A DNA stretch of 64,000 nt from Rhabdophis nuchalis (taxonomy: Eukaryota; Chordata; Lepidosauria; Squamata; Natricidae). Numbering within the stretch: position 1 is the stretch's first letter; each line of letters begins with the position of its first letter. The stretch is from contig CM077644.1 in the NCBI GenBank assembly GCA_039707465.1, positions 214,829,962 through 214,893,961 on the forward strand, read 5' to 3'. The notes beneath the pieces were generated by a model that was not told where the DNA came from, searched no databases, and saw only the letters and a program-made list of their open reading frames with translations. The position numbers and the translations under genes were made by a program. Below are positions 1 through 61,853 of this stretch, in pieces.

Positions 1-82
1 GGTGATGAGCCGAAAGGCAGAAAAGGAAAGCAGTATGCTTCCTCCCTTAATTGGGGCTTAACAGGGTGTTGTTACACAAGTA
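1..82 (+). repeat. Unit X, 5' module of the hammerhead-SINE family, copy 1
   Basis: A module of about 75 bp that recurs four more times in the window: 7433-7482 minus, 7843-7912 plus, 8161-8205 minus and about 42756-42796 plus. It starts with a short hairpin (GCC-GAAA-GGC around 9-18) and ends in a conserved stretch around 48-72 that finishes in CAGGGTGTTGT. In the 42.8-kb copy it directly precedes the tRNA-like and ribozyme parts, so it is probably the 5' module of that element. The family is not one I can name. Confidence 0.6.
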
Positions 83-92
83 TATATATATC

Positions 93-133
93 CTAGTCTC
101 CCTGACATATTTATTGATCAGCTCAAAAATGCA
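93..133 (+). repeat. 3' tail module of the hammerhead-SINE family, without its ribozyme
   Basis: The sequence starts CTAGTCTCCC and runs into TTTATTGATCAGCTC. That is the downstream half of the hammerhead element seen whole at 42951 onward. The tRNA-like part and the ribozyme 5' of the predicted cleavage point are absent here and are replaced by a short TA run. Confidence 0.6.
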
Positions 134-746: not shown

Positions 747-1238
747 ATGGCCCAGCATATCCCATTTTATCTACCCATGTACTCAAGGTCTGATCTCCTC
801 TCCCTGCGAGAGTTCCCCCTCTCGCAGGTTTGCCCTTTAAATCTGACAAGGGCCCACCTCGAGGATGGATATATTAATCAAGAGAGGTGGGCGCATCACA
901 AGTTAAGGGGGTTTTTAGCTAAATTTTTAATCAGGATTTTAGGGGGCCCCAGGGTGGTGGGTGGTTGGTTTTTAGAGGGTCTTAGGAAGGAGGAAGGGAT
1001 CAGGCAATCTAAGGCTAGGAATATGGTCAAGCCGGTTGACGGAACAAATAGAGCAACGGACGGGTCCGATAAGGGGAGGGGGAACCCGGGTCGACCTAGC
1101 AGAGGGTTTTGCAATCAGTACAGTCGTAGGGAGGGTAGGGGCGACAGGAGACAGGCAACATACCATCGGGTTGGGGAACGCAGCCACTGGTTACAGGCGG
1201 TCGTGTGCCCCGACCCCCTGACCTCCCCCAAGAGCTAG
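747..1238 (+). other. Open stretch in the L2 5' leader, possible ORF1 remnant
   Basis: A 163-codon open frame upstream of and overlapping the endonuclease frame. The product is basic and rich in Gly, Arg and Ser in its second half, with no motif I can assign (no CCHC knuckle, no esterase triad). It may be a small ORF1-like protein, or simply GC-rich leader that happens to be open. Confidence 0.25.
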
Positions 1239-4092
1239 GTGGTCAAGGTTCACAGAACCGGGGCCCTAGGTTGATGTTATGTAACGCCAGGTCCATGGTC
1301 AACAAAGCCCCCCTCATTAATGACCTTGTGTCAGAGGGGGAGCCGGACCTGGTGGGGATTACGGAGACCTGGTTGGGCCACGAAGGGGGTTTACCCCTCG
1401 TGGAAATGTGCCCACCAGGTTACCGCGCCTTCCATCAGCCTAGGGCCCTAGGGAGGGGTGGGGGAGTGGCGATTATGGTTAAGGAAGGTCTTGAGCCGAA
1501 GGAGACCACAGTCCCTCAGACAACCGGCTGTGAATCTCTCTGCGTGAGATGGGGCCTAGGGAGGCAGTTGGGCGTGTTAGTTGTATACCTGGCTCCTCAC
1601 TATGCAACAACAGCCCTGCCCGAGTTCCTAGAGGTGATAGTCGAGGCGGCAGTTGAGACCCCCAGACTGGTAATCAAGGGGGACTTTAACTTGCCGTCGG
1701 CGGGCAAAGCCTCTGGAGCAGCTCGGGAGTTCATGGCCTCCATGACAGCCATGGACCTGACCCAAGTAGTTTTAGGCCCCACTCACGAGGGGGGAAACAC
1801 GCTGGATCTGATCTTTGTCTCGGGACAGTGGAGTTGTGATCTGGGAATAGGGGATCTAGCCATCACTCCCTTGTCATGGACAGATCACGCTCTCCTTCGG
1901 CTGGACTTTCCAATCGCTTCACCTCACCGCGGGGAGGCGGAACCGGATACTCCTAGATGGTTCCGCCCCAGGCTTCTAATGGACCCGGAAAGGTTCCAGA
2001 GGGAGCTTGGGCCAATTCCTGTGACCCTGCCTCGCGACTTGACTGAGGACCTAGTGGCCGCATGGTTAAGTGCGGCCGCGGGGGCCTTGGACCGAGTCGC
2101 GCCCTTGTGGCCTCTCTTGCTGCGGCGACGAACCACCCAGGCTCCCTGGTTTACTGAGGAGCTTCAGGGAATGAAGCGCCACAAGAGACGCCTAGAGAGC
2201 AGATGGAGATCCTCTCACTCCGAAGCCGACCGAACACTAGTGAGAACCCATATTAGGGCTTACCTAGTAGCGATAAGGGTGGCCAAACGTGAGTATTGTG
2301 CCACTCTTATTGCATCCGCAGATAACCGCCCTGCCGCCCTGTTTGGGGCGACCCGCTCCCTCCTTCATCAGAGGCCGCGGGAAGCCCCTCTGCAAGGGTG
2401 AACAGAGGAATTTGGGATTTATCTGCAGGAGAAAATCACTCGGATTCGGAATGAGCTACCCTCCACCGACAGTGGTCCTGTGGGACTGTCCAAGACTAGT
2501 CTTGAGGTTCCTTCTTGGGAGGAGTTTGACTTTGTCACCACCGAAGATATGGACAATTTGTCAAGGAAACTTAGGGCGACCACATGTTTATTGGACCCGT
2601 GTCCCTCCTGGCTTGTACTGGCATCCTGGGAGACGACACGAGGCTGGCTCCAGGACATTGTCAACACATCTTTGAGTGAGGGGTCCTTACCTGCCATCTT
2701 GAAAGAGGCGGTAGTGAGGCCCCTCCTCAAGAAGCCGTCCCTGGACCCAGCATTGTTGGAGAACTATCGTTCGGTCTCCAACCTTCACTTTTTGGTGAAG
2801 GTTGTTGAGAGTGTGGTAGCCCAACAGTTTCCGCGACACCTGGAGGAAGTTGATTATCTAGACCTGCGCCAGTCCGGCTTCCGACCCGGGCATAGCACCG
2901 AGACGGCATTGGTTGTGTTGGTTGATGATCTCTGGAGGGCGCGGGATAGAGGTTATTCCTCTATCCTAGTCCTATTAGACCTCTCGGCGGCTTTTGATAC
3001 CATCGACCATGGTATCCTATTTCACCGACTGGGAGGGTTGGGGCTGAGAGGCACCGTTTTGCGGTGGTTCTCGTCCTACCTCTCTGATTGGTCGCAATAT
3101 GTGTTGACGGGAGGGCAGAGGTCAACCTCGAGACCCCTCTTATGTGGGATTCTTCAGGGGTCAGTCCTCTCGCCCCTCTTGTTTAACACATATATGAAGC
3201 CGCTGGGTGTGATCATCCGTGGTTTTGGGGTGGAGTACCATCTGTACGCTGACGACACTCAGCTGTACATATCCACCCCAGACCACCCCAACGATGCTGC
3301 CGAAGTGCTGTCCCGGTGTTTGGAGGCCGTACGGATCTGGATGGGTGGTAACAAACTCAAGCTCAACCCTGCCAAGACTGAGTGGCTGTGGTTTCGGCAC
3401 CCCGGTACAGCCAGATTACTCCAACTCTGGCCATTGGGGGCGAAACACTGGCCCCCGTGGAGAGGGCGCGCAATTTGGGTGTCCTCCTGGATTCCCGGCT
3501 GTCCTTGGAGGACCATGTGGCGCCTGTGGCCAGGGGGGCATTTCATCAGGTACGCCTGATGCGCCAATTGCGCCCCTTACTGGACCGGGCTGCCCTTTGC
3601 ACAGTCACTCAAGCTCTCGTGACGTCCCGACTCGACTACTGTAATGCTCCCTACATGGGGCTTCCCTTGAGGTGCACTCGAAAGCTACAGCTAGTCCAAA
3701 ACGCAGCCGCGCGTGTAATTACGGGAGCCACCAGATGCTCCCACATAACACCGATCCTGCGCGAGCTGAATTGGCTTCCTGTGGCCTTTCGGGTGCGCTT
3801 CAAGGTTCTGACGACCATCTTTAAAGCGCTCCGTGGCTCGGGGCCTAGTTATATGCGAGACCGCCTCCTGCCCCATACATCCCTTAGACCGATACACTTC
3901 CACAGAGAAGGCCTTCTCAGGGTGCCGTTGGCCGGACAATGCCGACTGGCGACACCCAGGGGAAGAGCCTTCTCTGTGACGGGCCCAGCCCTTTGGAACG
4001 ACTTACCCCCTGAATTACGCACCATCACCGACCTCCGCCTCTTCTGCCAATGTCTGAAGACATACCTTTTCCAACAAGCCGGCCTAGCCTAA
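1205..4092 (+). pseudogene. L2 ORF2: AP endonuclease and reverse transcriptase, two lesions
   Basis: The translation begins with an EN domain: [15 protein letters not shown], the [11 protein letters not shown] box, IKGDFNLPS (catalytic GDFN) and [10 protein letters not shown] (catalytic His). RT follows, with SGFRPGHSTETAL, LLDLSAAFDTIDHGILFHRL, GSVLSPLLFNTYM and LYADDTQLYIS. A C-terminal part of about 200 residues ends FQQAGLA. Two lesions are visible. One is a nonsense TGA at 2399-2401 where a sister copy (18340 region) has CGA, probably CpG decay. The other is a one-base deletion near 3395 that moves the frame from that of 1205 to that of 3382. Otherwise about 960 codons are open, so this insertion is young. 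It would encode the nicking and reverse-transcription activities for target-primed retrotransposition. Confidence 0.85.
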
Positions 4093-4311: not shown

Positions 4312-6408
4312 GGCCCGAATCTGACCGAACACAGGCAAGAGCCCAATTGAGGACTTACCTTGTGGCGATAAGGGTGGCCAAACGTCATTATTGTGCCACT
4401 CTTATCGCATCCGCAGATAACGCCCTGCCGCCCTGTTCAGGGTGATCCGCTCCCTCCTTCAACAGAGGCAGCGGGAAGCCCCGCTGCAGGGTAGAGCAGA
4501 GGAATTTGTAGAGTATCTGCAGGAGAAAATCGCTCAGATCCGGAGCGAACTGGCCTCCACCGACTGTGGTCTGGAGGGATTATCGGACGCAGGTCTTGAA
4601 ACATCTTTGTGGGAGGAGTTTGACTCTGTTACGTCCGACGATATGGACAGGTTACGTGGGCGACTGCAAGCTACCACATGTTTATTGGACCCTTGTCCCT
4701 CCTGGCTTATACTGGCATCCTGGGAGGTTACACGAGGCTGGCTCCAGGAAGTTGTAAATGCTTCTTTGAGTGAGGGGTTCTTGCCAACCGTCTTGAAAGA
4801 GGCGGTGGTGAGGCCCTTCCTCAAGAAGCCTTCCCTGGACCCAGCATTGTTGGTAAATTACCGTCCGGTCTCCAACCTTCACTTTTTGGCAAAGGTTGTA
4901 GAGAGTGTGGTGGCACAACAGTTTCCCCGTCACCTGGAGGAAATTGATTATCTGGACCCGCGCCAGTCCGGCTTCCGGCCTGGGCACAGCACCGAGACGG
5001 CATTGGTCGCGTTGGTGGATGATCTCTGGAGGGCCAGAGATGGGGGTTGTTCCTCCATCCTGGTCCTATTAGACCTCTTGGCGGCTTTCGATACCATCAA
5101 CCATGGTATCTTATTGCATCGACTGGAGGGGTTGGGGGTGAGGGGCACCGTTCTACGGTGGTTCTCCTCCTACCTCTCCGGTCGATCGCAATTTGTGTTG
5201 GCAGGAGGGCAGAGGTCGACCTCGAGACCACTCACTTGTGGGGTGTCTCAGGGGTCGGTCCTCTCGCCGCTCCTGTTCAACACATATATGAAGCCGCTGG
5301 GCGAGATCATCCGTGGTTTTGGGGTAGAGTACCATCTGTACGCTGATGACATTCAGCTGTACATATCTACCCCAAACCACCCCAACGATGCCGTCGAAGT
5401 GATGTCCCGGTGTCTGGAAGCCGTACGGATCTGGATGGGAAGGAACAGACTCAGACTCAACCTGTCCAAGACCGAGTGGCTGTGGTTTCCGGCGTCCCGG
5501 TACAACCAGTTTATTCCATCACTGGCCATAGGGCGCGAACACCTAGCCCCCATGGATAGGGCTCGGAACTTAGGCGTCTTCCTGGATACCAGGCTGTCGT
5601 TAGAAGATCATTTGACGGCCGTGGCCATGGTTCTACCAGGTTTGCCTGGTTCATCAGTTGCGGCCCTTATTGGACCGGGACGTCCTTCGCACAGTCACTC
5701 ATGCGCTCGTGACATTCCGTCTAGACTACTGCAATGCTCTCTACATGGGGCTCCCCTTGAGGTGCACCCGAGGCCTACAGTTAGTCCAGAATGCAGCCGC
5801 ATGAGCAATTATGGGAGCTCCTAGTTGCTCCCATGTAACACCGCTCTTGCGTGAGCTGCACTGGCTGCCTGTGGCCTTTCGGGTGCGCTTCAAGGTGCTG
5901 ATTATCATCTTTAAAGCGCTCCATGGCACGGGACCTAGTTATCTACGGGATCGCATCCTACCCCACACATCCCTGCAGCCGATTCGCTCCCACAGAGAGG
6001 GACTTCTCCGGGTGCCGTTCACTAGGCAATGCCAGCGGGCGACGCCCAGGGGAAGGGCCTTCTCTGTGGCGGGCTCAACCCTCTGGAACGACCTACCCCC
6101 CGAACTTAGAATGACCATGAACCTCCGTTCTTTCTGTCTGAAACTCAAGACTTACTTTTTCCAACAGACCGGCCTGGCCTAACTCTACCTAGCCTTTAGC
6201 CTGACATCAAATTGTTTTAATTGGTTTTTAAGGGTAATAGTTTTAATTTATTGTAAATTTTAGCACAGGGTTAATAATTTAATTTGATTTTAAATTTTGT
6301 ATATTGTCTTGTTTTTATATGCTTTTTTAATTTCCTGTGCACCGCCCCGAGTCCCTTTTTGGGAAAGGGAGCGGTATATAAATTAAATAAATCTAATCTA
6401 ATCTAATC
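4312..6408 (+). mobile_element. L2-clade LINE, 5'-truncated (L2 copy 2)
   Basis: It begins within the spacer between EN and RT (equivalent to about 2219 in copy 1), so the endonuclease is lost. It keeps the RT and the L2 3' end with the CCGAGTCCC box and GGTATATAAATTAAATAAA. The tail is a run of ATCTA units at 6390-6408. It lies head to tail with copy 1 and is followed at 6409 by resumed PLE sequence. Confidence 0.85.
4442..6182 (+). pseudogene. L2 reverse transcriptase remnant (copy 2)
   Basis: The RT frame 4442-5824 contains SGFRPGHSTETALVAL, LLDLLAAFDTINHGILLHRL, GVSQGSVLSPLLFNTYM and the active-site LYADDIQLYIS. Near 5625 a frameshift leaves the conserved C-terminal text, which resumes in the frame of 5811 (APSCSHVTPLLRELHWLPVAFRV) and ends at 6182 with FQQTGLA. 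The substitution of Thr by Ile after YADD is a copy-specific change. There is no endonuclease, so the copy could not have moved by itself. Confidence 0.8.
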
Positions 6409-7315
6409 TATTTAAATGCACAATCCCATCACCACACTGCACAGATCAACTCCGTAGCCAAGACCCTCATCTCCAGAACCAAACGCCTAGCTGACAAAGA
6501 CCACCTGAAAACTGAATTACACACCCTCACAAAGATATTAATCGCCAATGGATTCCAAAGAAACACAATTACCAACCTAATCTAAAGGGAGACACCCCCC
6601 CAAGAACCAAAACACAGAACAAGACAATGGCATCGCCCTCCTCCCTTACATCAAAGGCACAACAGATAAAATCAGCAAAATTCTCCATAAACACAATATC
6701 AAGACATCCTTCGACACTAACCAAAAAATAGCCAACATCTTAAGAAACCCCAAAGACAAGATCCAGCTAGAAAACCAAGGAATCTATGAAATACCATGCA
6801 AAATCTGCCCAGCCACATACATTGGACAAACTAATAGGAGAATTAATGCACGCATTGCAGAACATAAGAATGCTGTCAAAAAACAAGAAAATACTTCCTC
6901 CCTTTTCCAACACCTCAAAGCAACAGGACATGAAATTGATTTTGAAAAAAAATTGCTCTCCAAAACTGAACACTTCAACAAGAGAATAATTATGGAAGCT
7001 ATTGAAATAGAGAAACACCCCAACATGAATAAACGTGATGATGCCTCCCGCCTGCCAGACATCTGGAAACTAGCTCTGGCCATTAAACGAGTCCCAGCCA
7101 CAAAAACTGACAGCAGACCCAGAACAACACAGGACACCATCACCAATCAACTCCAACAAACATCAACTCCATCTACCAATCAGGATGTGACAAATCAGCC
7201 AACCAATCCATTTAAAGCAGCAGAGCCAGCATTCCAACCCCCCCTACCTCTACTTATAGAAAAACTGCCACTTCGATCACAGTTTACTCACAAGAAAACA
7301 AAGGCACCAGTCTGA
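6409..7315 (+). pseudogene. PLE linker and GIY-YIG endonuclease domain
   Basis: The frame of 6409 reads YLNAQSHHHTAQINSVAKTL, then LADKDHLKTELHTLTKILIA, the normal PLE thumb region, up to a TAA at 6582. Just beyond it, in the frame of 6779, the linker GIALLPYIKGTTDKISKIL is followed by GIYEIPCKICPATYIGQTNR and RINARIAEHK. These are the GIY and YIG signatures, the catalytic Arg region and the downstream Glu side, preceded by the CxxC that Penelope GIY-YIG domains usually carry. The frame stays open to the TGA at 7313-7315. In living PLEs this domain nicks target DNA to prime reverse transcription. The endonuclease looks undamaged here although the element lacks most of its RT. Confidence 0.8.
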
Positions 7316-7348
7316 TGATGACGGGTGTGATCTCGTCGAAACGTTGCC
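7312..7348 (+). ncRNA. Hammerhead-like core at the PLE 3' end (candidate, probably not functional as it stands)
   Basis: CUGAUGA (7312-7318) is followed by a GACG/CGTC stem around a 10-base loop and then GAAAC. This is the order of hammerhead core boxes, with one extra U before the stem. The same core, varied, occurs in the left terminal copies. The TGA of CUGAUGA is also the stop codon of the GIY-YIG frame. I could not pair a convincing stem I, and stem III would be only AC/GU. PLEs are known to carry hammerhead motifs in their terminal repeats. Confidence 0.4.
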
Positions 7349-7401: not shown

Positions 7402-7431
<30 letters not shown>

Positions 7432-7482
7432 GTTTCCACAACACCCTGTTAGGCCCCAATTAAGGGAAGAAGCATACTGTTT
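7402..7482 (-). repeat. TA microsatellite and unit X, copy 2
   Basis: A (TA)n run (about 7402-7428) is followed by unit X in reverse orientation (7433-7482). Copy 1 at position 1 is in forward orientation, so the PLE nest is bracketed by inverted X units. Confidence 0.65.
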
Positions 7483-7504
7483 TATATATATATATATAAA
7501 CGTT

Positions 7505-7650
7505 TTTGAGCTGATCAATAAATAAGTCAGATCTATTTTGAGCTTTTTAGCTCTCATCAGCTAGCCATACCCTTACTGGGATTTGAACCGGGGCTGTATT
7601 GCATGCCAGGCAGGAGCCTTAGCCATTAGGCCACCAGGTTCTCTTCCTGA
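7505..7650 (-). mobile_element. tRNA-derived hammerhead SINE, copy C (decayed)
   Basis: On the minus strand the order is A box TGGCCTAATGG (7623-7633), B box GGTTCAAATCC (7579-7589), then a hammerhead region (7520-7566) and the TTTATTGATCAGCTC tail. The ribozyme has CUGAUGA and a perfect GAGCT/AGCTC stem II, but the invariant G12 is A (AAAA in place of GAAA). The 3' strand of stem I is missing, so cleavage should be abolished. Confidence 0.7.
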
Positions 7651-7671
7651 TCATTCTCATATATATATATC

Positions 7672-7790
7672 CACTGGTTCGAATCCCAGTGGTGTGTGGC
7701 CAACTGATGAGAGCTAATAAGCTCGAAATAGATCTATCTTGGTCTCTCAAATTTAAATTTATTGATTAGCTCATAAAACTAACACACATA
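7672..7790 (+). mobile_element. tRNA-derived hammerhead SINE, copy D (5'-truncated)
   Basis: It begins just before a perfect B box GGTTCGAATCC (7676-7686) and so lacks the A box. It continues through an intact hammerhead core and the tail ending TTTATTGATTAGCTC. Its left edge is a short TA run. Confidence 0.7.
7698..7744 (+). ncRNA. Type I hammerhead ribozyme (copy D)
   Basis: Every invariant core base is present. C3-A9 is CTGATGA (7704-7710). Stem II is GAGCT/AGCTC (711-715/720-724) with loop AATA. G12-A15.1 is GAAA (725-728). Stem III is ATAG/CTAT (728-731/734-737). The cleavage-site base H17 is C738 after AUC. Stem I GGCCAA (698-703) pairs with TTGGTC (739-744), six pairs including one G-U. 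It would self-cleave the transcript after 7738. Activity has not been shown; the folding is read directly from the bases. Confidence 0.75.
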
Positions 7791-7842
7791 TCTAAAAAAA
7801 TTTACACAACATAATTCATGGTTCTCTGTCTAGATGGTCTCT

Positions 7843-7912
7843 GGTGATGAGCCGAAAGGCAGAGAGGGAAACAGTATGTCTCCTCCCTTAATGGGGCCCT
7901 AACAGGAAGTTG
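7843..7912 (+). repeat. Unit X, copy 3
   Basis: Begins GGTGATGAGCCGAAAGGCAG and matches position 1 onward with small differences. It directly precedes the full SINE copy A, the same order as at 42.8 kb. Confidence 0.65.
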
Positions 7913-7942
7913 TGAAAATAATTATCTATACTAAATACTCCT

Positions 7943-8150
7943 GTCTTAGGTGATGCAATGGGTAGAGCCGGTTAGGCTGTAGTGCTAGGCTTCTGCCTTG
8001 GATGCATTAAAGCCCCGGTTCGAATCCCAGTGGTGTGTGGCCAACTGATGAGAGCTAATAAGCTCGAAATAGATCTATCTTGGTCTCTCAAATTTAAATT
8101 TATTGATCAGCTCATAAAACTAACACACACACACATATATCTATATCTAT
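7943..8150 (+). mobile_element. tRNA-derived hammerhead SINE, copy A
   Basis: The tRNA-like head has an A-box-like TGATGCAATGGG (7951-7962) and a consensus B box GGTTCGAATCC (8017-8027). The hammerhead (8039-8085) follows 11 bases later, then the tail to TTTATTGATCAGCTC and an ACACAC/TA run. An internal pol III promoter upstream of a self-cleaving motif suggests that the transcript would be processed in cis. A Schistosoma SINE-like family (Sm-alpha) is a known parallel. Confidence 0.75.
8039..8085 (+). ncRNA. Type I hammerhead ribozyme (copy A)
   Basis: Identical to copy D across the 47 bases: core CTGATGA 8045-8051, stem II 8052-8056/8061-8065, GAAA 8066-8069, stem III to the C17 cleavage base at 8079, and stem I GGCCAA (8039-8044) with TTGGTC (8080-8085). 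No core mutation is visible. Confidence 0.78.
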
Positions 8151-8160
8151 ATATATATTT

Positions 8161-8260
8161 GTGTCACAACACCCTGTTAAGCCCCAATTAAGGGAGGAAG
8201 CATACATACATAATAAGGGAGGAAACATACATACATATTTATTGATCAGCTCAAAAAAAC
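8161..8260 (-). repeat. Unit X, copy 4, and tail fragment
   Basis: Reverse-orientation X (8161-8205), then CATA repeats and one more TTTATTGATCAGCTC tail in forward orientation (about 8239-8254). This is the right edge of the nest. Confidence 0.6.
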
Positions 8261-8280
8261 CCTAACATACATACATACGA

Positions 8281-17330: not shown

Positions 17331-17654
17331 AAGTAACTCAACCACCTCCAAGGCTCATCCTCTATCTCACCAAATAGTTTTAATTTAGAAGGGAGGTAAT
17401 ATATACCTAAAGTTTAAACTATGGACCATAGATGCAGCTGTAAGGTTGCAGTGGACAATCAACCGTTAAGTGTTGAAATATGCTGTGCCTTCACTGAGTG
17501 CCATTTCACTTGTATTCTCAGTCTTGAATTATTTATATTTTGATTAAAAATCCCACCTTTTAACTTCTGCCTGAATAATTAGAATTGTTATTGTTCTCAA
17601 CTACTGTTCCCAGCATTTTCCTTTCTACTGAACTATACATGAATTATTAGTAAT

Positions 17655-20197
17655 GCCGTCGGTAGGCGAAACCTCTGGTGCAGCTCGGGAGTTCATGGCT
17701 TCCATGGCAGCCATGGACCTGACCCAGGTAGTTTTGGGCCCTACCCACGAGGATGGACACACCCTGATCTCATCTTCGTCTCGGGACAGTGGAGTCGTGA
17801 TCTGGTAATAGGGGATTTAGTCATCACACTCCTGTCATGGACAGATCACGCTCTCCTTCGGCTCGACTTTCCGATCGCTGCACCCCATCGCGGGGAGGCG
17901 GAACTGGATATTCCTATATGGTTCCGCCCCAGGCTTCTGATGGACCCGGTAAGGTTCCAAAGGGAGCTTGGGCCAATTCCTGTGGACTTGCCCCGCGACT
18001 CGACTGAGGACCTAGTGGCCGCATGGTTAAGTGCGGCCACGGGGGCCTTGGACCGAGTCGCGCCCGTGCGGCCTCTCTTGCGGCGACGATCCACCCGGGC
18101 TCCTTGGTTCACCGAGGAGCTTAGGGAGATGAAGCGCCACAAGAGACGCCTAGAGAGCAGATGGAGATCCTCTCGCTCCGAAGCCGACCGAACACTAGTG
18201 AGAACCTACATTAGGACTTACCTGGTGGCGATAAGAGTGGCCAAATGTGAGTATTGTGCCACTCTTATTGCATCCGCAGATAACCGCCCTGTTTGGGGTG
18301 ACCCGCTCCCTCCTTCATCAGAGGCTGCGGGAAGCCCCTCTGCAAGGGCGAGCAGAGGAATTTGGGATTTATCTGCAGGAGAAAATCACTCGGATTGGGA
18401 GCGAGCTGCCCTCCATCGACAGTGGTCCAGCTGAGGTTGCTCTTGAGACACCATCTTGGGAGGAGTTTGATTTTGTTACTACCGAGGATATGGACAAGTT
18501 GTCAAAGAGACTTAGGGCTACCACATGTTTATTGGACCCGTGTCCCTCCTGGCTTGTACTGGCATCCTGGGAGACGACACGAGGCTGGCTCCAGGGCATT
18601 GTCAACGCATCTTTGAGTGAGGGGTCCTTGCCTGCCGTCTTGAAAGAGCCGGTAGTAAGGCCCCTCCTCAAGAAGCCGTCCCTGGATCCAGCATTACTAG
18701 AGAACTATCGTCCCGTCTCCAACCTTCACTTTTTAGTGAAGGTTGTTGAGAGTGTGGTGGCCCAACAGTTTCCGCGACACTTGGAGGAAGTTGATTATCT
18801 AGACCCGCGCCAGTCCGGCTTCCGACCCGGGCATAGCACCGAGACGGCATTGGTCGCGTTGGTTGATGATCTCTGGAGGGCGCGGGATAGAGGATATTCC
18901 TCTATCCTAGTCCTATTAGACCTCTCAGCGGCTTTTGATACCATCGACCATGGTATCCTATTGCGCCGACTGGGGGGGTTGGGGCTGGGAGGCACCGTTC
19001 TACGGTGGTTCTCTTCCTACCTCTCTGGTCGGTCGCAATATGTGTTGGCAGGGGGGCAGAGGTCGGCCTCGAGGCCCCTCGTATGTGGGGTACCTCAAGG
19101 GTCGGTCCTCTCGCCCCTACTGTTCAACACATACATGAAGCCGCTGGGCGAGATCATCCGTGGTTTTGGGGTGGGATATCATCTGTACGCTGATGATACT
19201 CAGTTGTACATATCCACCCCAGACCACCCCAACGATGCCGTCGAGGTCATGTCCCGGTGTTTGGAGGCCGTACGGATCTGGATGGGTAGTAACAAACTCA
19301 GGCTCAACCCATCCAAGACTGAGTGGCTGTGGCTTCCGGCACCCCGGTTCAGCCAGATTATTCCAACTCTGGCCATTGGGGGCGAAACACCGGCCCCCGT
19401 GGAGAGGGCGCGCAATTTGGGTGTCCTCCTGGATTCCCGGCTGTCCATGGAGGACCATGTGGCGGCCGTGGCCAGGGGGGCTTTCCATCAGGTACGCCTG
19501 ATGCACCAATTGCGGCCCTTACTGGACCGGGCTGCCCTTCGCACAGTCACTCAGGCCTGTACTGTACTGTAATGCTCTCTACATGGGGCTTCCCTTGAGG
19601 TGCACTCGAAAGCTGCAGTTAGTCCAGAATGCAGCCGCGCGGGTGATTACGGGAGCGCCTAGACACTCCCACATAACACCTATCCTGCGCGAACTGCACT
19701 GGCTTCCTGTGGTCTTTCGGGTGCGCTTCAAGGTTCTGACGACCATCTTTAAAGCGCTCCATGGCTCGGGGCCTAGTTATATGCGAGACCGCCTCCTGCC
19801 CCATACATCCCTTAGACCAATACGCTCCCACAGAGAGGGCCTCCTCAGGGTGCCGTCGGCCGGACAATGCCGACTGGCGACACCCAGGGGGAGAGCCTTC
19901 TCTGTGGCAGGTCCAGCCCTTTGGAACGACTTACCCCCTGAACTTCGCACCATCTCTTAAGACACATTTGTTCCATCTAGCCGGCCTAGCGTAGCCCCCT
20001 ATACTGACTTTTAGATAGTTTTTAAATTTGGGGATTTTAATCTGGTTTTAGCACAGGTTCTATTGAATTAGTTTTTTAAATTTTATATGTTTTGTATGTA
20101 TTTTAATTTTCCTGTGCGCCGCCCTGGGTCCGTTTGGAGAAGGGCGGGGTATAAATTGAATAAATATAAATATAATAAATATAATATAATATAATAA
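17655..20197 (+). mobile_element. L2-clade LINE, 5'-truncated (L2 copy 3)
   Basis: It starts inside the EN domain (equivalent to about 1690 in copy 1) and runs through RT to the L2 3' box (CCGCCCTGGGTCCG), GGGGTATAAATTGAATAAA and a TATAA-rich tail. It sits in SREK1 intron 2, antisense to the gene. Confidence 0.85.
17940..19960 (+). pseudogene. L2 EN/RT remnant (copy 3)
   Basis: Two overlapping frames (17940-18434 and 18247-19572) are joined by an apparent 8-base deletion near 18290 relative to copy 1. RT motifs SGFRPGHSTETALVAL, LLDLSAAFDTIDHGILLRRL, GVPQGSVLSPLLFNTYM and LYADDTQLYIS are all intact. A deletion near 19558 shifts the frame again; the C-terminal part (19583-19960) ends early because of a further deletion before the usual KTYLFQQAGLA. 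Confidence 0.8.
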
Positions 20198-38903: not shown

Positions 38904-40519
38904 CAGTTGCAAGAAAAAGTATGTGAACCCCTTGGGATTACGTGGAGTTTTACATGAATTGGTCATAAAATGTGCTCTGAACTTCATCTAAGTCACAACA
39001 ATAACAAAACACAGTCTGCTTAAAATAATACTACACAAACATTAGATGTTGCCATGGTTTAATTGACCATAACATGTAAACATTCACAGTGCAGGGAGGA
39101 AAAAGTATGTGAGCCCCTAGCCTAATGACTTCTCCACAAGCTAATTGCAACCAGGAGTGAGCCAACCTTGACTCCAATCAGTGTGATGATATTGGATGTG
39201 TTGCTGACAGCTGTCCTGCCCTTTAAAAATACACACCTGTTTTGGGTTTACTGGTTTCAAGAAGCACTGCCTGATGTGAACCATGCCTCGCAGAAAAGAG
39301 CTCTCAGAAGACCTACGATCAAGAATTGTTGACTTGCATGAAGCTGGAAAGGGTTACAAAAGTATCTCCAAAAGCCTTGATGTTCATATATCCATGGTAA
39401 GACAGACTGTCTAGAAATGGAGAAAGTTTAGCACTGTTGCTACTCTCCCTAAGCATGGTTGTCCTGTAAAAATGACTGCAAGAGCACAGCGCAGAATGCT
39501 TCATGAGGTAAAGAAGAATCCTAGAGTGTCAGCTAAAGACCTACAGAAGTCCCTGGCACATGCTAACATATTTGTTGACACATCTACAATGAGGAAAACA
39601 TTAAACAAGAATGGAGTACATGGGAGGACACCATGGAGGAAGCCATTGCTGTCCAAAAAAAATATTGCAGCACGTTTGAAGTTTGCAAAAGAGCACCTGG
39701 ATGTTCCACAGCACTACTGGCAAAATATACTGTGGACAGATGAAACCAAAATTGAGTTGTTTGGGAAGAACACACAACACTATGTGTGGAGAAAAAAAGG
39801 CACAGCACACCAACAGCAAAACCTCATCCCCACTGTAAAACATGGCAGAGGGAGCATCATGGTTTGGGGCTGCTTTGCTGCCTCAAGGCCTGGATGGATT
39901 GTTGTCATTGATGGGAACATGAATTCCAGAGTTTATCAAGACATTTTGCAGGAAAACGTACAACCATCAGTCCGCCAACTGAAGCTCCGCAGAGGATGGG
40001 TGATGCAACAGGACAATGACCCAAAGCATACAAGTAATTCAACAAAAAAATGGTTTCAACAGCACAGAATACGCCTTCTGGAGTGGCCCAGTCAGAGTCC
40101 TAACCTCAACCTGATTGAAATGCTGTGGCATGACCTTAAGAGAGCGATTCACACCAGACATCTCAAGAATATTGCTGAAAGAGTTTTGTGAAGAGGAGTG
40201 GTCCAAAATTACTCCAGATCGTTGTGCAAGTCTGATCTGCAACTACAGGAAACGTTTGGTTGAGGTTATTGCTGCCAAAGGAGGGTCAACCAGGTGTTAA
40301 GTCCACCGGTTCACATACTTTTTCCTCCCTGCACTGTGAATGTTTACATGTTTTGTTCAATTAAACCATGGCAACATCTAATGTTTGTGTAGTATTATTT
40401 TAAGCAGACTGTGTTTTGTTATTGTTGTGACTTAGATGAAGTTCAGAGCACATTTTATGACCAATTCATGCAAAACTCCACATAATTCCAAGGGGTTCAC
40501 ATACTTTTTCTTACAACTG
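38904..40519 (+). mobile_element. Tc1-like transposon (full length, IR/DR type)
   Basis: Terminal repeats CAGTTGCAAGAAAAAGTATG and its inverse bound 1616 bp between TA target dinucleotides (38902-38903 and 40520-40521). The inverted repeats extend to about 215 bp. An inner direct copy of the AAAAAGTATGTGA motif lies at about 39105 and mirrored at about 40320, the IR/DR arrangement known from Sleeping Beauty-type Tc1 elements. Inserted in an ERBIN intron, antisense to the gene. Confidence 0.93.
39282..40300 (+). pseudogene. Tc1 transposase (DDE), one stop and one frameshift
   Basis: [20 protein letters not shown] starts a paired-like helix-turn-helix domain. The catalytic triad is present in order: WTDETKIELFG (first Asp), QQDNDPKHTS (second Asp), and [13 protein letters not shown] (Glu, 34 residues later in the DD34E pattern). 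Two lesions inactivate it: TAG at about 39411-39413 inside the DNA-binding domain, and a frameshift at about 40165-40190. After the shift the text resumes as [20 protein letters not shown] and ends IAAKGGSTRC. The copy is otherwise full length (about 340 codons), so it is fairly young. Confidence 0.92.
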
Positions 40520-41386: not shown

Positions 41387-42755
41387 CTGAATAAAGAGGG
41401 GACAGATAACAGAGATTAGTGCAGCATGCATAAATCACAAGCCATGTTATACACAAAGTCAGTGCAGACACGCAGATTGTATATCATGTTATAACCATGC
41501 AAACAAAAAACTGTCCCGCTGTGAATACAAAATCTCAGTCACATGCCATGTGATTTTTCACAATATAATTGAACATGCTGTCTGACATAAACACCACACA
41601 AAGCTCAGCATACACCCATTCATTGGCCAGAACCACCTCTCCCTATCTGCCCATCCCAAGAGACCAGATTTTGGCGGGGGGGGGGAGGGGAGGCATGCTC
41701 CAGGTTCACTTCCTGAAATCTTGCCATTTAGTAAGACATTGAAAGTGTGCCTTTTCCACTTTCACTACAGAGTGAAAGCCCAATGGAATTTCAGCACTTA
41801 ATAGATGAGATCGATTGAGATCACTATGAGATCAACCCATTGTGAAAAGGGCACACAAACTATAAGACCGGGAACCAGATTTGAATTGAAGATCAATATC
41901 CGATTTAAATGCAATTTAACAATATTTCCAGTATTATCAAAACTTAATGAACAAAGCAAGCTCCAGAAAAAGTCCTACAGAAGGAAGCCTGCTAATCACC
42001 CTTTAAAACCAGGTTTACTCAGAGTGGCGTCCAAGAACAAATGGAACAAGAGCCAATCGAGAAAAGAATTGTTATTAAGCTCTAGCATGAAGGAAAACCA
42101 AGCCTGCCTCTAACAAAGTACAATGTTTTAATGCATCTTGAGATTGTAAAGACAGCGCTAGGAAACATAAATCAAATAGCTTCAGGGATGTCAATGTTTC
42201 CAAATGTACTGGCTTGGACATCATATTGGAATGGAGATTACTTTGATTATAAGAGATTACTTTGACTACAAAGACTTTGTCCATAAAGAAATATTATATT
42301 GATTTCATCATCATAGATTATCATGAACTACTAAATTACTTTGCATGTTTATTGCTGCTTCTTCTTCTTACTAATTATAGCCTAGTTCCCAAACAAAAAC
42401 TTAAATATATTCAGCTATATTAGGAAGATGCTTCTCCCAAATCTATAGCCATAAGAAATATCTTGGCTTTGTTTGTTTTTACTGGTTGTTGTTGATGAGT
42501 TTTATTGAAGTAATATAAATTGTTTCGCTTGCTTCCTGCTGGGCTCAAAATAGTCTGTGCTAGATTGGATTGCAATTAATTATTTTAATTCAGTTCCATA
42601 ATTTCTTAAGACAATTTTTTAAAATATTTTTTAAAAATCCTATTGTCAATATTTTTGTAGAGTGGGCAACAGCACTCAGCCTGAAGTACCATCCTACGTT
42701 TTGTGGCTTTAAAGTAATATGTGTGTGTATGTGTATATATATATACACAGTTCTG
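41387..42755. other. ERBIN intron, unassigned
   Basis: No exon or recognised transposon; a short G run near 41676 and AT-rich sequence elsewhere. Confidence 0.4.
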
Positions 42756-43020
42756 CTCCCTCCCTTAATTGGGGCTTACCAGGGTGTTGTGACACAAATA
42801 TATACTTATTCCCCTGGCTCAGCTGATCAGGAGGAGAACCTGGTGGCTTAGTGGCTAAAACATCTGCGTAACATGTAACACAGCCCCAGTTCAAATCCCA
42901 GTAAGGATTGGCTAGCTGATGAGAGCTAAATAGCTTGAAATAGATCTATACTAGTCTCCCTTATTTATTTATTTATTTATCAGCACAAAAATGTATCACA
43001 TATACATACATACATATATA
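42756..43020 (+). mobile_element. Complete hammerhead-bearing tRNA SINE (copy B)
   Basis: The modules in order are unit X (about 42756-42796), a spacer, a tRNA-like region with A box TGGCTTAGTGG (42844-42854) and B box AGTTCAAATCC (42888-42898), a hammerhead (42910-42956), and a tail of TTTA repeats with TATCAGCAC and CATA repeats. It lies alone in an ERBIN intron, far from any PLE body, which shows that the X-tRNA-ribozyme unit moves as an independent element. No coding capacity. Confidence 0.78.
42910..42956 (+). ncRNA. Type I hammerhead ribozyme (copy B, extended stem I)
   Basis: Core CTGATGA is at 42916-42922. Stem II GAGCT/AGCTT (923-927/932-936) closes with a G-U. GAAA is at 937-940, stem III ATAG/CTAT follows, and H17 is A at 42950 (AUA triplet). 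Stem Ia GGCTAG (910-915) pairs with CTAGTC (951-956). Beyond a 3-by-2 internal loop, a distal stem Ib GTAAGG (901-906) pairs with CCTTAT (959-964). An interrupted stem I of this kind is what natural hammerheads use for tertiary contact with loop II. Confidence 0.8.
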
Positions 43021-43439
43021 AAACAACAGGGGATTGTTTAAGCCAATATAACATTCAAGACTCTCAGAACATTCTTAACGTGGCCCATATTGTGTGTTTT
43101 TTTTTATTCCAAGCATTTTTTTCCCTTGCTTTCCCTCTAATAAAGATACTGCTGGTGGACAAAATTAAAATAAACTACATAGTGAAAAAACACTTTTGCA
43201 AATCAAGCGAAGATAGGCATAAATGAAACACAATATTGTGCATGAGAGAAAGAGAGAAAAAGCATCCATCGTTTCTCAAAAGTCTGTGGAGGGATAGATG
43301 AAAAGAAATTTGTTATTGCCATTTAAATCTAAAGCAAACAGACTTTCTATCAAAAATTCACTATGTTTTTATGGCAGTCTAAGGCAGTCTCATGTTCCTG
43401 GAAACACTTACCAAGGAAAATAGGTTGGTATGGAATGTT

Positions 43440-53732: not shown

Positions 53733-55560
53733 TTAATAATAATAATAATAATAATAATAGTTTAATTTCTTGACCGCTCCTCTCCCCGTAGGGACTCGGA
53801 GCGGTGCACAGGGAAACTAAAAACCATAAATATACAATCAAGAACATCTTAAAAACAAATTAAATAGTACCTGTGCTAAAATACCCAATCTAAACTAAAA
53901 TTCCCACTATACACTAAAACCCCATAGAGAGAGACTACCCCAGACCGGCCAAGCAGAAAAAATATGTTTTTAATTTCAGACGGAAGGAGCGGAGGTCCGT
54001 GGTCGTTCTAATGTCGGGGGGAAGGTCATTCCAGAGGGCAGGGCCCGCCACAGAGAGAGCCCTTCCCCTGGGCGTCGCCCGCTGACAAAGTCTAGTGGAC
54101 GGCACCCGGAGAAGTCCCTCTCTGTGGGAGCGAATCGGCCGTGAGGAAGTATGGGGCAGGATCCGATCCCGCAAGTAGCTAGGTCCCGAGCCATGGAGCG
54201 CTTTAAAGATGATAATTAGTACCTTGAAGCGCACCCGGAAGACGACAGGCAGCCAGTGCAGCTCGCGCAGGAGAGGTGTTACATGGGTAAACCTAGAGGT
54301 ACCCAGGATTGCCCGCGCGGCTGCGTTCTGGACCATCTGCAGTCTCCGGGTGCACCTCAAGGGAAGCCCCATGTAGAGAGAGTTACAATAGTCCAGTCGA
54401 GATGTCACGAGAGCATGAGTGACTGTGCAAAGGGCGTCCCGATCCAATAGGGGGCGCAACTGGCGAACCAGGCGAACCTGGTAAAACGCCCTCCTAGCCA
54501 CGGCTGTCACTTGATCTTCCATGGACAGCCGGGCATCTAGGAGGACACCCAAGTTGCGCGCCCCATCCACAGGGGCAAGATGTTCGCCCCCTATGGCCAG
54601 CGATGGAGTTAGCTGGTTGAATCGGGCAGCCGGAAACCACAGCCACTCGGTCTTGGTCGGGTTGAGTCCGAGTCCGTTACTTCCCATCCAGATCCGTACG
54701 GCTTCCAGGCACTGGCACATCACCGCTACGGCATCGTTGGGGTGGTTTGGGGTAGATATATACAGCTGCGTATCATCAGCGTAGAGATGATACTCTACCC
54801 CAAAACCACGGATGATCTCGCCCAGCGGCTTCATGTATGTGTTGAACAGGAGAGGCGAGAGGACCGACCCCTGAGGAACCCCACATGTGAGGGGTCTCGA
54901 GGTCGACCTCTGCTCTCCTGCCAACACAAATTGCGATCGGCCAGAGAGGTAGGAGGAGAACCACCGTAAAACGGTGCCTCCCACCCCCAACCCCCCCAAC
55001 CGATGCAATAGGATACCATGGTCGATGGTATCGAAAGCCGCTGAGAGGTCTAATAGGACCAGGATGGAGGAACAACCCCCATCCTTGGCCCTCCAGAGAT
55101 CATCAACCAACGCGACCAATGCCGTCTCGGTGCTATGCCCGGGCCGAAAGCCGGACTGGCGCGGATCTAGATACTCAACTTCCTCCAGGTGACGGGGAAA
55201 CTGTTGTGCCACCACACTCTCAACAACCTTCGCCAAAAAGGGAAGGTTGGAGACTGGACGATAGTTGTTCAAAAGAGCTGGATCCAAAGAGGGCTTCTTG
55301 AGGAGGGGCCTCACCATAGCCTCTTTTAGAGAGGCAGGCAAGGAACCCTCACTCAAGGATGCGTTGATAACCTCTTGGAGCCAGCCTCGTGTCACCTCCC
55401 AGGATGCCAGTACAAGCCAGGAGGGACACGGGTCCAATAAACATGTGGTGGCTCGCAGTCGCCCACGTAACCTGTCCATATCCTCGGAAGTAACGGAGTC
55501 AAACTCCTCCCAAACAAGATCTGTCTCGTGGCATCTCACTGGGCCATCAATGGAGGGTTT
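53733..55560 (-). mobile_element. L2-clade LINE, 5'-truncated (L2 copy 4)
   Basis: On the minus strand it begins just before the RT region and ends with the L2 box and a (TTA)n tail (53733-53760). It sits in an ERBIN intron in the same sense as the gene, and no lesion is seen in its RT frame. Confidence 0.87.
53935..55539 (-). CDS. L2 reverse transcriptase, open frame (copy 4)
   Basis: A 534-codon uninterrupted frame: LLDPCPSWLVLASWEVTRGW, SGFRPGHSTETALVALVDDL, LLDLSAAFDTIDHGILLHRL, CGVPQGSVLSPLLFNTYMKP, YHLYADDTQLYIS (YADD active site), and the C-terminal LRELHWLPVVFRVRFKVLII to FFCLAGLG. The endonuclease is lost by 5' truncation, so it is not autonomous. The initial Met is likely fortuitous. 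Confidence 0.8.
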   Translation of the reverse strand: MRCHETDLVWEEFDSVTSEDMDRLRGRLRATTCLLDPCPSWLVLASWEVTRGWLQEVINASLSEGSLPASLKEAMVRPLLKKPSLDPALLNNYRPVSNLPFLAKVVESVVAQQFPRHLEEVEYLDPRQSGFRPGHSTETALVALVDDLWRAKDGGCSSILVLLDLSAAFDTIDHGILLHRLGGLGVGGTVLRWFSSYLSGRSQFVLAGEQRSTSRPLTCGVPQGSVLSPLLFNTYMKPLGEIIRGFGVEYHLYADDTQLYISTPNHPNDAVAVMCQCLEAVRIWMGSNGLGLNPTKTEWLWFPAARFNQLTPSLAIGGEHLAPVDGARNLGVLLDARLSMEDQVTAVARRAFYQVRLVRQLRPLLDRDALCTVTHALVTSRLDYCNSLYMGLPLRCTRRLQMVQNAAARAILGTSRFTHVTPLLRELHWLPVVFRVRFKVLIIIFKALHGSGPSYLRDRILPHTSSRPIRSHREGLLRVPSTRLCQRATPRGRALSVAGPALWNDLPPDIRTTTDLRSFRLKLKTYFFCLAGLG

Positions 55561-55975
55561 TGCTACCAGACTTTAAATGCTATTGTCATATATTATTTAT
55601 ATGTTCTTAATTGTGCTGGGTGTTATCATTTGAGGCGGTTTCTGAAGGTTTCTTTAGATTTTTAAACAATTTGATTCTTTATAGGTTATTTTATTCTTTA
55701 TCTTAATTGTTATCTATTAGTTGTAATGTTAAGTGAATGAACCAGTCTGCTAACCAAAATTGTGAAACACATTATTTATTTCTGATACATCTATCTTGGA
55801 TGAACATCTTGCAAAATGTACAGAATGTCATTTATAAGGTTTTTTTCAAATTGTCTTCACATTAACTATAGTTAAAATAAAAATTAAAACAGTTCAAATT
55901 TTCGCTGCTCTCAAAAATTATTAATAGATGTGTAGTGAAAAGTTAGAAAATTTCAAACATAAAACTGAATCTAAC

Positions 55976-57221: not shown

Positions 57222-57325
57222 AGGGTCTCCAACCTTAGCAACTTTTAAGACTTGTGGACTTCAACTCCCAGGATTCTGGGAGTTGAAGTCCACAGGTCTT
57301 AAAGTTGCCAAGGTTGGAGACTTCT
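57222..57325. repeat. Near-perfect palindromic MITE
   Basis: GGGTCTCCAACCTTAGCAAC on the left mirrors GTTGCCAAGGTTGGAGAC on the right. The centre GACTTCAACTCCCAGGATTC / CTGGGAGTTGAAGTC folds with almost no loop. I recognise this foldback as a frequent squamate repeat. Confidence 0.8.
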
Positions 57326-60038: not shown

Positions 60039-61716
60039 TTCTAAACCGCACCCTCTCCCCACAGGGACTCGGGGCGGTGCACAGGCACAGTAAAACAATA
60101 AATACATATAAACATTTCATTAAAAATAAATTAAATCCAAACCTGCGCTAAAATTCCCATTAAAACTAAGCAATATTACAAAACCCCAATAAAACCCCAA
60201 AGACAGAGAGACTATCCTAGGCCGGCCAGACAGAAGAAATGAGTTTTTAATTTGAGACGGAAGGAGCGGAGGTCCGTGGTGGTCCTAATATCGGGAGGGA
60301 GGTCGTTCCAGAGGGCCGGGCCCGCCACAGAGAGAGCCCTTCCCCTGGGCGTCGCCCGCTGACAAAGTCTAGTGGATGGCACCCGGAGAAGTCCCTCTCT
60401 GTGGGAGCAAATCGGTCGTGAGGATGTATGAGGCAGGATCCGATCCCGCAGATAGCTAGGTCCCGAGCCATGGAGCGCTTTAAAGATGATAATCAACACC
60501 TTGAAGCGCACCTGGAAGACGACAGGCAGCCAGTGCAGCTCGCGCAAGAGCGGTGTTACATGGGTAAACCTAGTGGTTCCCATAATTGCTCGCGCGGCTG
60601 CATTCTGGACTAGCTGAAGTCTCCAGGTGCACCTCAAGGGGAGCCCCATGTAGAGAGAGTTGCAATAGTCCAGTCGGGATGTCACGAGCGCATGAGTGAC
60701 TGTGCGAAGGGCGTCCCGATCCAATAGGGGGCGTAATTGGCGAACCAGGCGAACCTGGTAAAACGCCCTCCTGGCCACGGCTGTCACTTGATCTTCCATG
60801 GACAGCCGGGCATCCAGGAGGACACCCAAATTGCGCACCCCATCCACAGGGGCAAGATGTTCGCCCCCTATGGCCAGCGATGGAGTGAGCTGGTTGAATC
60901 GGGCAGCCGGAAACCACAGCCACTCGGTCTTGGTTGGGTTGAGCCTGAGTCCGTTACTTCCCATCCAGACCCGCACGGCTTCCAGGCACTGGCACATCAC
61001 CGCTACGGCATCGTTGGGGTGGTTTGGGGTAGAAATATACAGCTGGGTGTCGTCAGCGTATAGATGGTACTCTACCCCAAAACCACGGATGATCTCACCC
61101 AGCGGCTTCATGTATGTGTTAAACAGGAGAGGCGAGAGGACCGACCCCTGAGGCACCCCACATGTGAGGGGTCTCGAGGTCGACCTCTGCTCCCCTGCCA
61201 ACACAAATTGCGATCGGCCAGAGAGGTAGGAGGAGAACCACCGTAAAACGGTGCCTCCCACTCCCAACCCCCCCAGCCGATGCAATAGGATACCATGGTC
61301 GATGGTATCGAAAGCCGCCGAGAGGTCTAATAGGACCAGGATGGAGGAACAACCCCCATCTCTGGCCCTCCAGAGATCATCAACCAACGCGACCAATGCC
61401 GTCTCAGTGCTATGCCCGGGCCGAAAGCCGGACTGGCGCGGGTCTAGATAATCAACTTCCTCCAGGTGACGGGGAAACTGTTGTGCCACCACACTCTCAA
61501 CAACCTTCGCCAAGAAGGGAAGGTTGGAGACTGGACGATAGTTGGTTAATAAAGCTGGATCCAAAGAGGGCTTCTTAAGGAGGGGCCTCACCATAGCCTC
61601 TTTTAGGGAAGCAGGCAAGGAACCCTCACTTAAGGAAGCGTTGACAACCTCTTGGAGCCAGCCTCGTGTCACCTCCCAGGATGCCAGTACAAGCCAGGAG
61701 GGACACGGGTCCAAAA
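60031..61716 (-). mobile_element. L2-clade LINE, 5'-truncated (L2 copy 5)
   Basis: Very close to copy 4 in sequence but truncated slightly later (starts at the LLDPCPSW region). L2 3' box at 60045-60080. Same sense as ERBIN. Confidence 0.87.
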
Positions 61717-61732
61717 TACTTGTTTCTCCCAT
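60212..61732 (-). CDS. L2 reverse transcriptase, open frame (copy 5)
   Basis: 506 codons uninterrupted. The first residues MGETSI come from flanking intron; L2 text starts LDPCPSWLVLASWEVTRGW. All RT boxes are intact (AFDTIDH, GVPQGSVLSPLLF, YADDTQLYIS) through to the end FFCLAGLG. Endonuclease missing. Confidence 0.8.
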   Translation of the reverse strand: MGETSILDPCPSWLVLASWEVTRGWLQEVVNASLSEGSLPASLKEAMVRPLLKKPSLDPALLTNYRPVSNLPFLAKVVESVVAQQFPRHLEEVDYLDPRQSGFRPGHSTETALVALVDDLWRARDGGCSSILVLLDLSAAFDTIDHGILLHRLGGLGVGGTVLRWFSSYLSGRSQFVLAGEQRSTSRPLTCGVPQGSVLSPLLFNTYMKPLGEIIRGFGVEYHLYADDTQLYISTPNHPNDAVAVMCQCLEAVRVWMGSNGLRLNPTKTEWLWFPAARFNQLTPSLAIGGEHLAPVDGVRNLGVLLDARLSMEDQVTAVARRAFYQVRLVRQLRPLLDRDALRTVTHALVTSRLDYCNSLYMGLPLRCTWRLQLVQNAAARAIMGTTRFTHVTPLLRELHWLPVVFQVRFKVLIIIFKALHGSGPSYLRDRILPHTSSRPICSHREGLLRVPSTRLCQRATPRGRALSVAGPALWNDLPPDIRTTTDLRSFRLKLKTHFFCLAGLG

Positions 61733-61853
61733 GAAACATGTTTAAGACTTTTGCAGGTGTTTTGAATTTCTAATGTCAGGTAAACAAATCCAATCTCAGC
61801 ATTTTTTATTTCAAGTAGAATTTTGTATAATAATCAATAAATGTAGTTCTTAC

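Follow-up and report, generated by a model that had tools for sequence, protein, structure and literature searches.

Why should a type I hammerhead ribozyme stand directly behind a tRNA-like promoter motif in a squamate genome, and what copies the repeat that carries it? The question is raised by positions 42901–42964 of a 64,000-nt stretch of Rhabdophis nuchalis DNA (contig CM077644.1; hereafter the window, with coordinates counted from its first nucleotide), in which a sequence-only reading had recognised a tRNA-derived SINE carrying a complete hammerhead.

The focal hammerhead and its promoter-like motifs

The forward-strand sequence at 42901–42964 is assigned, from the sequence itself, Rfam and covariation, to a type I hammerhead ribozyme with an interrupted stem I and predicted cleavage after A42950. 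The core can be read off directly, with CTGATGA at 42916–42922, GAA at 42937–42939 and A42950 at position 17. Stem II has five base pairs (42923–42927 with 42932–42936), stem III has three (42940–42942 with 42947–42949) closed by a 4-nt loop, and stem I has six, formed by GGCTAG (42910–42915) and CTAGTC (42951–42956). Beyond a 3x2 internal loop, 42901–42906 pairs with 42959–42964 to give the distal stem Ib. A B-box-like element, GTTCAAATCC (42889–42898, forward strand), ends 2 nt 5' of the hammerhead, and an A-box-like stretch, TGGCTTAGTGG (42844–42854, forward strand; the A-box consensus is TRGYNNARNNG), ends 34 nt before the B box. All of these motifs lie within one copy of a larger repeat, at 42748–43026 on the forward strand, which aligns to the unit consensus from u254 to u198 (head, tRNA-like part, hammerhead and tail) and is flanked by simple repeats on both sides.

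A strict hammerhead descriptor found three sites in the window, all belonging to the same family, and none in 300 Markov-simulated windows, in keeping with the earlier judgement that such an architecture is unlikely to arise by chance. An Rfam scan of the window at the gathering threshold returned no match; Hammerhead_1 and HH9 matches are located, but all fall under their curated cut-offs. The focal match to Hammerhead_1 (RF00163, 42910–42956) reaches 22.3 bits against a curated 34 (E-value 0.84 when the entire window is searched with all families), and the focal copy scores R1 92.1 bits. Its departures are a G-U pair at the base of stem II (U11.1) and an A at position 17, and its internal loop I is one base shorter than the family consensus GTAAGGGTATGGC. 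Both A17 and a G-U pair at 10.1–11.1 slow hammerheads; by its sequence, the focal copy is a weakened or worn member of the family. With energy folding alone, the focal, C and F sequences formed stems I and II, stem III appeared in none, and the lineage B sequence took a different fold.

The B box recurs in lineage units A, B and F, and an A box fitting the pattern occurs in A only. The tRNA-like part at 7568–7640 (reverse strand) scores 21.1 bits with the Rfam tRNA model against a cut-off of 29, and ARAGORN predicts no tRNA in the window. As judged from these motifs, the pol III signals in the unit are modest, and they suggest a tRNA-type promoter for a self-cutting retroelement. Avoidance of the pol III terminator was considered and dropped: TTTT is absent from three unit sequences but with P values of 0.46–0.70. 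The label 'tRNA-derived SINE' can be kept in part. A mobile repeat with a B box it is, but its tRNA score lies below the Rfam cut-off, and 'SINE' alone misses the anatomy of retrozymes and Penelope-like elements (PLEs), because the unit is ~330 bp long and is arranged in tandem or as head-to-head pairs, its 3' ends being internal.

A large family with a constrained ribozyme

The genome search covered 1.92 Gb in 348 contigs. Three DNA queries returned 1573, 3245 and 1192 first-look candidates, 40 of each being scored, and the lists of copies were ordered either best-first or by position, from the start of contig C1. The exact core pattern CTGATGAGAGCTNNNNAGCTYGAAATAGATC has 14,022 genome matches (reversed-pattern control, 0), and a second pattern made up of stem I (GGCCAG/CTGGTC) and CUGANGA only has 10,739 (control, 0); the two sets overlap, so the counts are not additive. 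Sequence and genome copies together bear out the proposal that a repeated mobile element has a type I hammerhead immediately 3' of a tRNA-like B box. One core pattern scanned across viral contigs found no match. Among 12 loci scanned, the best hammerhead score was 33.4 against the Rfam cut-off of 34. For lineage B and F copies (25.8–31.3 bits) and some A and C copies (up to 31.9) the Rfam family reported is HH9 (RF02275), with scores well under its cut-off of 52.

A covariance model made from five lineage strings and run on 45 loci gave 119 copies, 88 of them distinct. In the distinct copies 93.1% of cells are paired, against 89.5 in shuffles, and 78 cells carry a double change, against 23.5 (reached in 0 of 500 shuffles), figures that kinship among copies inflates; slid controls pair merely 25–52% of cells. 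Of the five covariation measures, two stand out less, namely the number of pairs with a double change (11 against 7.4; 8 of 500 shuffles) and the number of pair types (26 against 23.1; reached by 28 of 500). The cleanest set comprises the first 100 listed of the 10,739 matches, for which stems II and III lay outside the search pattern. Here 793 of 800 stem II/III cells are paired, and in the 22 distinct rows of those 100 the figure is 169 of 176, the shuffle maximum being 162. The same 100 contain pairs that switch together, at 10.1–11.1 (GC 62, AT 35), 10.2–11.2 (GC 78, AT 21), 10.3–11.3 (GC 94, AT 4) and the third pair of stem III (GC 73, AT 27).

The core obeys the expected rules. N7 is A, C or T in 46, 33 and 21 of those first 100 matches, and is also the freest core position in the 88 distinct copies (T 79, A 6, C 3). 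In the latter, H17 is C in 54, A in 31, T in one and G in none, with two gaps, and pair 10.1–11.1 is most commonly G-C (50), with G-U in 29. The family has the CUGANGA...GAA core, the A15.1–U16.1 pair and three helices, of which II and III are closed by loops and I is open. All three show compensatory rather than random changes, so that the genome copies withstand the refuting test set in the sequence-only reading. Core decay is also seen, with G12 changed to A in 9 of the 88. Stem Ib, singled out in the sequence-only reading, is present but is conserved less well than any other helix, with the outer two pairs forming in 69% of cells and the inner three in 90.6%; in the lineage B copies of the window, three of its five pairs are non-standard. 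When lineage units A, B and F are compared, identity is 83–85% in the hammerhead, 40–46% in the 5' tRNA-like part and 70–79% in the B-box stretch. These patterns indicate that the ribozyme of the family is under constraint.

The unit also contains a second conserved RNA hairpin (CTCTGTCT..GGTCTCTGGTGATGAGCCGAA..AGGCAGAG) at u204–258, found at 7830–7880 in a lineage B copy of the window. It is 76–85% identical among lineage units, shows U-A to C-G and G-C to A-U changes (119 copies, 104 distinct), and could be a protein-binding site. A candidate second ribozyme in the unit (GGTGATGAGCCGAAA) was set aside; the alignment shows a plain covarying hairpin.

Within the window, BLAST identified relatives at 7500–8260, together with a piece lacking the full ribozyme at about 1–131. 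Alignment and Rfam define a forward-strand lineage B tandem of ~1.4 units at 7656–8129, with hammerheads at 7685–7761 and 8026–8102 whose HH9 matches (7690–7758 and 8031–8099) reach 27.8 bits against 52 (E 0.0089). A reverse-strand copy at 7418–7653 was placed by alignment and comprises a head piece (7418–7477) and a unit (7478–7653) with a decayed hammerhead (7515–7580). BLAST and alignment further gave a head fragment at 8152–8205 (reverse strand), a tail fragment at 8236–8272 (forward strand) and, at 1–128 (forward strand), a head (1–91, u224–314) joined to a tail (92–128, u127–163), with no complete ribozyme between the two.

Anatomy of the unit and its insertions

The unit consensus is 328 nt long and was built from 27 of 31 units, four from locus L027 being left out. 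Same-strand ribozyme neighbours 200–420 bp apart number 31, of which 19 are spaced at 312–341 bp; at L027 the steps are 255–263 bp. Alignment of 80 loci to the three lineage units gave 201 chains, mostly one to few per locus. Neighbours within 3 bp of each other are head-to-head in 39 cases, tail-to-tail in 2 and on the same strand in 11, and among 100 exact matches listed by position the corresponding numbers within 500 bp are 11, 4 and 10. Locus L029 duplicates the place of L015; it was dropped from the chain-likeness and 5'-start counts and kept in the count of neighbour orientation.

Free 3' ends cluster at two sites inside the unit, the first at u163–189 in lineage A and u177 in B (CTAACACA), the second at u298–315 in A and u320/328 in B, and in many cases the sequence continues as (CA)n, (TA)n or (CTAT)n. 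Of the free ends, 77 of 140 on the 3' side and 28 of 71 on the 5' side have a microsatellite no more than 36 nt away; in control stretches the figure is 116 of 3,047. Flanks of this kind would mask any target-site duplications. The 5' ends are scattered, with fuller bins at u253–259 (12) and u134–140 (11) among 197 starts. No pile-up is seen at the cleavage site, where u124–131 holds 5 of the 197 starts against 4.8 expected; the bins at u134–147 (21 starts) lie 6–20 nt beyond that site and leave the top bins when chains shorter than 60 nt are removed. Since the cleavage site is unmarked and 140 of the 197 chains cross it, the templates would have been either uncleaved or religated.

Association with Penelope-like elements

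Directly upstream of the unit cluster in the window lies the 3' part of a PLE open frame with a GIY-YIG motif (6581–7315, forward strand), for which Pfam GIY-YIG gives 19.8 bits against a cut-off of 22.6. It runs into a hammerhead-like motif of the PLE's own, CTGATGATGACGGG...GTCGAAAC (7312–7345, forward strand), seen in the sequence and giving no Rfam hammerhead match. A motif of the form CTGATGA...stem...GAAACG, unlike that of the unit, is likewise present at PLE 3' ends elsewhere (L089–L096).

A genome search with the window PLE protein, in which 150 of 7266 candidates were scored, gave 178 matches, many of equal score and with long frames of up to 924 aa. Among the matches listed, PLE neighbours within 8 kb were counted by eye as 7 head-to-head, 0 tail-to-tail and 6 on the same strand, and in the regions read the PLE 3' ends give way to (TA)n or (CA)n at one or the other of two points. 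The units show this PLE type of insertion anatomy, with tandems, inverted arms and internal 3' ends. They also keep company with PLEs: of 19 PLE ends, 11 have retrozyme units within ~700 bp, compared with 2 of 19 control windows displaced by 137 kb (Fisher p 0.003). The PLE of the window, from which the idea came, does not enter the count, and the score cut of 30 was set after the scores had been seen (weakest counted, L097 at 36; highest uncounted, L104 at 19). Addition of a first batch, which has no controls of its own and from which the tandem regions L089 and L090 were omitted, gives units beside 14 of 25 non-tandem PLE ends (p 0.002). The exact PLE hairpin string occurs in 13 of the 19 second-batch regions and is missing from L102, L106, L107, L113, L114 and L115; L102 and L106 carry variant forms of the string, the sequences of L114 and L115 start at a later point of the PLE tail, and all 19 regions were kept despite the missing strings. 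An alternative count of 26 of 80 loci with a PLE was rejected as too high, matches of window 6340–6395 looking like another repeat.

Similarity to the unit sequence was not found in the PLE 3' regions L089, L090 and L094–L096 (five regions), and the unit matches in L091–L093 are inserted units. The association of units with PLE ends could reflect a common liking for microsatellites. Taken together, the common arrangement and the association point to PLEs as the copying machinery. At one locus, L019, positions 351–555 contain a stretch resembling a PLE 3' end (351–437) and an inverted repeat with GAAACGTTGC, adjoining a retrozyme piece.

A model for the copying cycle and its alternatives

The reading that we favour, at a probability of roughly 0.73, takes the feature for the ribozyme domain of a non-autonomous 'retrozyme' of ~330 bp with a tRNA-like promoter, copied by PLEs, with cleavage, pol III transcription and the identity of the enzyme as its predicted elements. 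Pol III transcription, driven by the tRNA-like A and B boxes, would run through a single unit or several. The type I hammerhead, whose structure the covariation shows, would cut the multi-unit RNA once per unit and so create 5'-OH ends. A PLE RT/GIY-YIG enzyme would begin reverse transcription inside the RNA at either of two AC/AT-rich sites, which lie about 50 and 175–200 nt 3' of the cleavage position, primed from nicked microsatellite DNA, a step consistent with the observed 3'-end sites and frequent microsatellite flanks. Priming on both DNA strands would produce two arms meeting 5'-to-5', as in the head-to-head pairs observed, and tandems would stem from longer templates or from template switching. 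The ribozyme would be retained as the cycle needs it, which we infer because the hammerhead is so much better conserved between the three lineages than the tRNA-like part (83–85% against 40–46%). The more specific proposition, of a pol III-driven retrozyme with the ribozyme as its conserved body that parasitises PLEs in an amniote genome, is put forward tentatively and at less than even odds.

Another route to the same insertions, one proposed for retrozymes, is that the hammerhead produces one-unit RNA circles, which are then copied by rolling reverse transcription. The length of the unit and its tandem arrangement are compatible with such a route, a religated circle would allow insertions to cross the cleavage site as they do, and some tandems are near-identical (L064, 0.992; L066, 0.986). 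Overall, however, likeness within a chain does not exceed that between random copies of the lineage (0.883 against 0.867 in A, n=40; 0.848 against 0.902 in B, n=27), with within-chain likeness above the 95th percentile in three cases in A and one in B, and L009, L015 and L028 join units with unlike tRNA-like parts. One-unit circles are therefore disfavoured as the usual template, and we judge this route rather unlikely.

The PLE-copied retrozyme must also be weighed against an ordinary LINE-dependent tRNA SINE, in which the hammerhead is incidental and the tandems and inverted pairs are secondary rearrangements. Such an element would have A and B boxes 5' of its body, as here, where the B box is present in all three lineage units compared, and in lineage A slightly more 5' ends than expected lie close to where pol III should start (11 of 127 starts at u1–12 against 4.6 expected), other bins being equally full or fuller. 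Random rearrangement, however, is not expected to leave head-to-head pairs that abut with gaps of 0–3 bp, 39 of them against 2 tail-to-tail. The 3' ends at two internal sites are followed by CA, TA or CTAT repeats and not by an A-rich tail, and chains that start upstream in the head could not have come from transcripts initiated at the A/B boxes of an isolated unit. A LINE-driven SINE is, on this evidence, improbable.

Spread mainly by DNA-level duplication, as a satellite-like repeat whose ribozyme is a passenger or only processes long transcripts, would suit the regular arrays at C1:252399–253833 (five units at exact 347-bp steps) and C1:5646232–5648354 (seven units at exact 346-bp steps), and the 255–263-bp steps of L027. 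It is made very improbable as the general explanation by the 201 chains over 80 loci, mostly one to few at each, with two 3'-end sites and on many contigs. The arrays on C1 are mostly of lineage CTGACGAGGGCT, and their exact steps resemble newt satellite hammerheads. A chance look-alike or decayed motif without function, to which the sub-threshold Rfam score of the focal copy and core hits such as the G12 change in 9 of 88 copies might lend colour, is already contradicted by the covariation, the N7/H17 rule, the conservation at lineage level and the 0 of 300 simulated windows.

Relation to known hammerhead elements

Judged by anatomy, the closest known kinds would be the metazoan non-LTR retrozymes and Sm-alpha. 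Features found here that define retrozymes are a unit within 170–400 nt with a type I hammerhead in tandem, and PLEs in the genome. Metazoan non-LTR retrozymes such as those of axolotl likewise have, in the available text, a ~330-bp unit, a type I hammerhead with a short helix III, tandem copies, very high copy number and PLEs in the host genome (PMC7229834). They differ from the present unit in that the latter has tRNA-like A/B boxes, head-to-head pairs and internal 3' ends at microsatellites, and the terms 'polymerase III', 'SINE', 'reptile' and 'lizard' are all absent from the text of PMC7229834. The axolotl retrozymes form tandem units of 330 and 350 bp, and their hammerheads are described as weak when monomeric and better as dimers (PMC7229834); the short stem III suggests, by analogy, that the hammerhead of the present unit may also work better as a dimer. 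The same text leaves the partner of retrozymes open, naming PLEs as a strong candidate, and a 2020 review, in the text available, describes animal retrozymes as having no conserved motif to tell which autonomous element moves them (PMC7761336).

The Sm-alpha/Sj-alpha elements of Schistosoma are likewise described as SINE-like, tRNA-related and hammerhead-bearing, with more than 10,000 copies (PMC2770079). They belong to another phylum than the host of the present unit, and the likeness is one of description. We know of no two-site 3' ends or PLE association for these elements.

The Anolis PLE PAc, in the available account, also has a hammerhead and tandem copies (PMC11167929). According to that account, reverse transcription by its protein in vitro is initiated within an AC-rich stem-loop, with a preference for AT-rich targets and extension of both strands, and unprocessed RNA is the main insertion substrate. 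Unlike the ~330-bp unit, PAc has a frame for RT and endonuclease, the beginning of which lies within its hammerhead region (PMC11167929). The PLE 3' ends described above resemble the PAc 'tail' as presented there.

The intronic hammerheads of amniotes (HH9) are reported, in the text available, at conserved intronic sites (PMC6155905), whereas the unit described here is a mobile repeat; the HH9 matches are a lead, and nothing more, to the origin of the intronic hammerheads. The squamate SINEs Squam1, Squam2 and Squam3 are also tRNA-related, SINE-derived tandem satellites occur (PMC10702118, PMC7983390), and Squam3 is given as derived from Ther1 (PMC7983390, available text). The distinction of the unit from all three, above all from Squam2, is a provisional one drawn from text: the word 'ribozyme' is absent from PMC10702118 and 'hammerhead' from PMC7983390. 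No description of a squamate hammerhead SINE was found in a literature search with subscription papers mostly outside its scope, which is no proof of novelty.

The 3'-end sites, head-to-head arms, microsatellite flanks and company of PLE ends provide a concrete and testable partner for a retrozyme. A PLE-parasitising retrozyme, if the proposal is true, would be a link showing which enzyme moves animal retrozymes, and such elements could be a source of intronic hammerheads such as HH9. The more than 14,000 core matches form a large natural set of hammerhead variants, in which compensatory changes can be read directly.

Other elements in the window

LINE-like frames occur in the window at 1139–3559, 4421–6182, 17643–19960, 53935–55572 (reverse strand) and 60212–61741 (reverse strand), endonuclease and RT domains being confirmed only for the frames at 1139–2398 and 2402–3556. 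A Tc1/mariner-type transposase frame (HTH_Tnp_Tc3_2, DDE_3) is present at 39415–40191. At 57247–57300 lies a 54-nt near-perfect inverted repeat, matched by mir-5408 on both strands below the cut-off, which is perhaps the remnant of a small DNA transposon.
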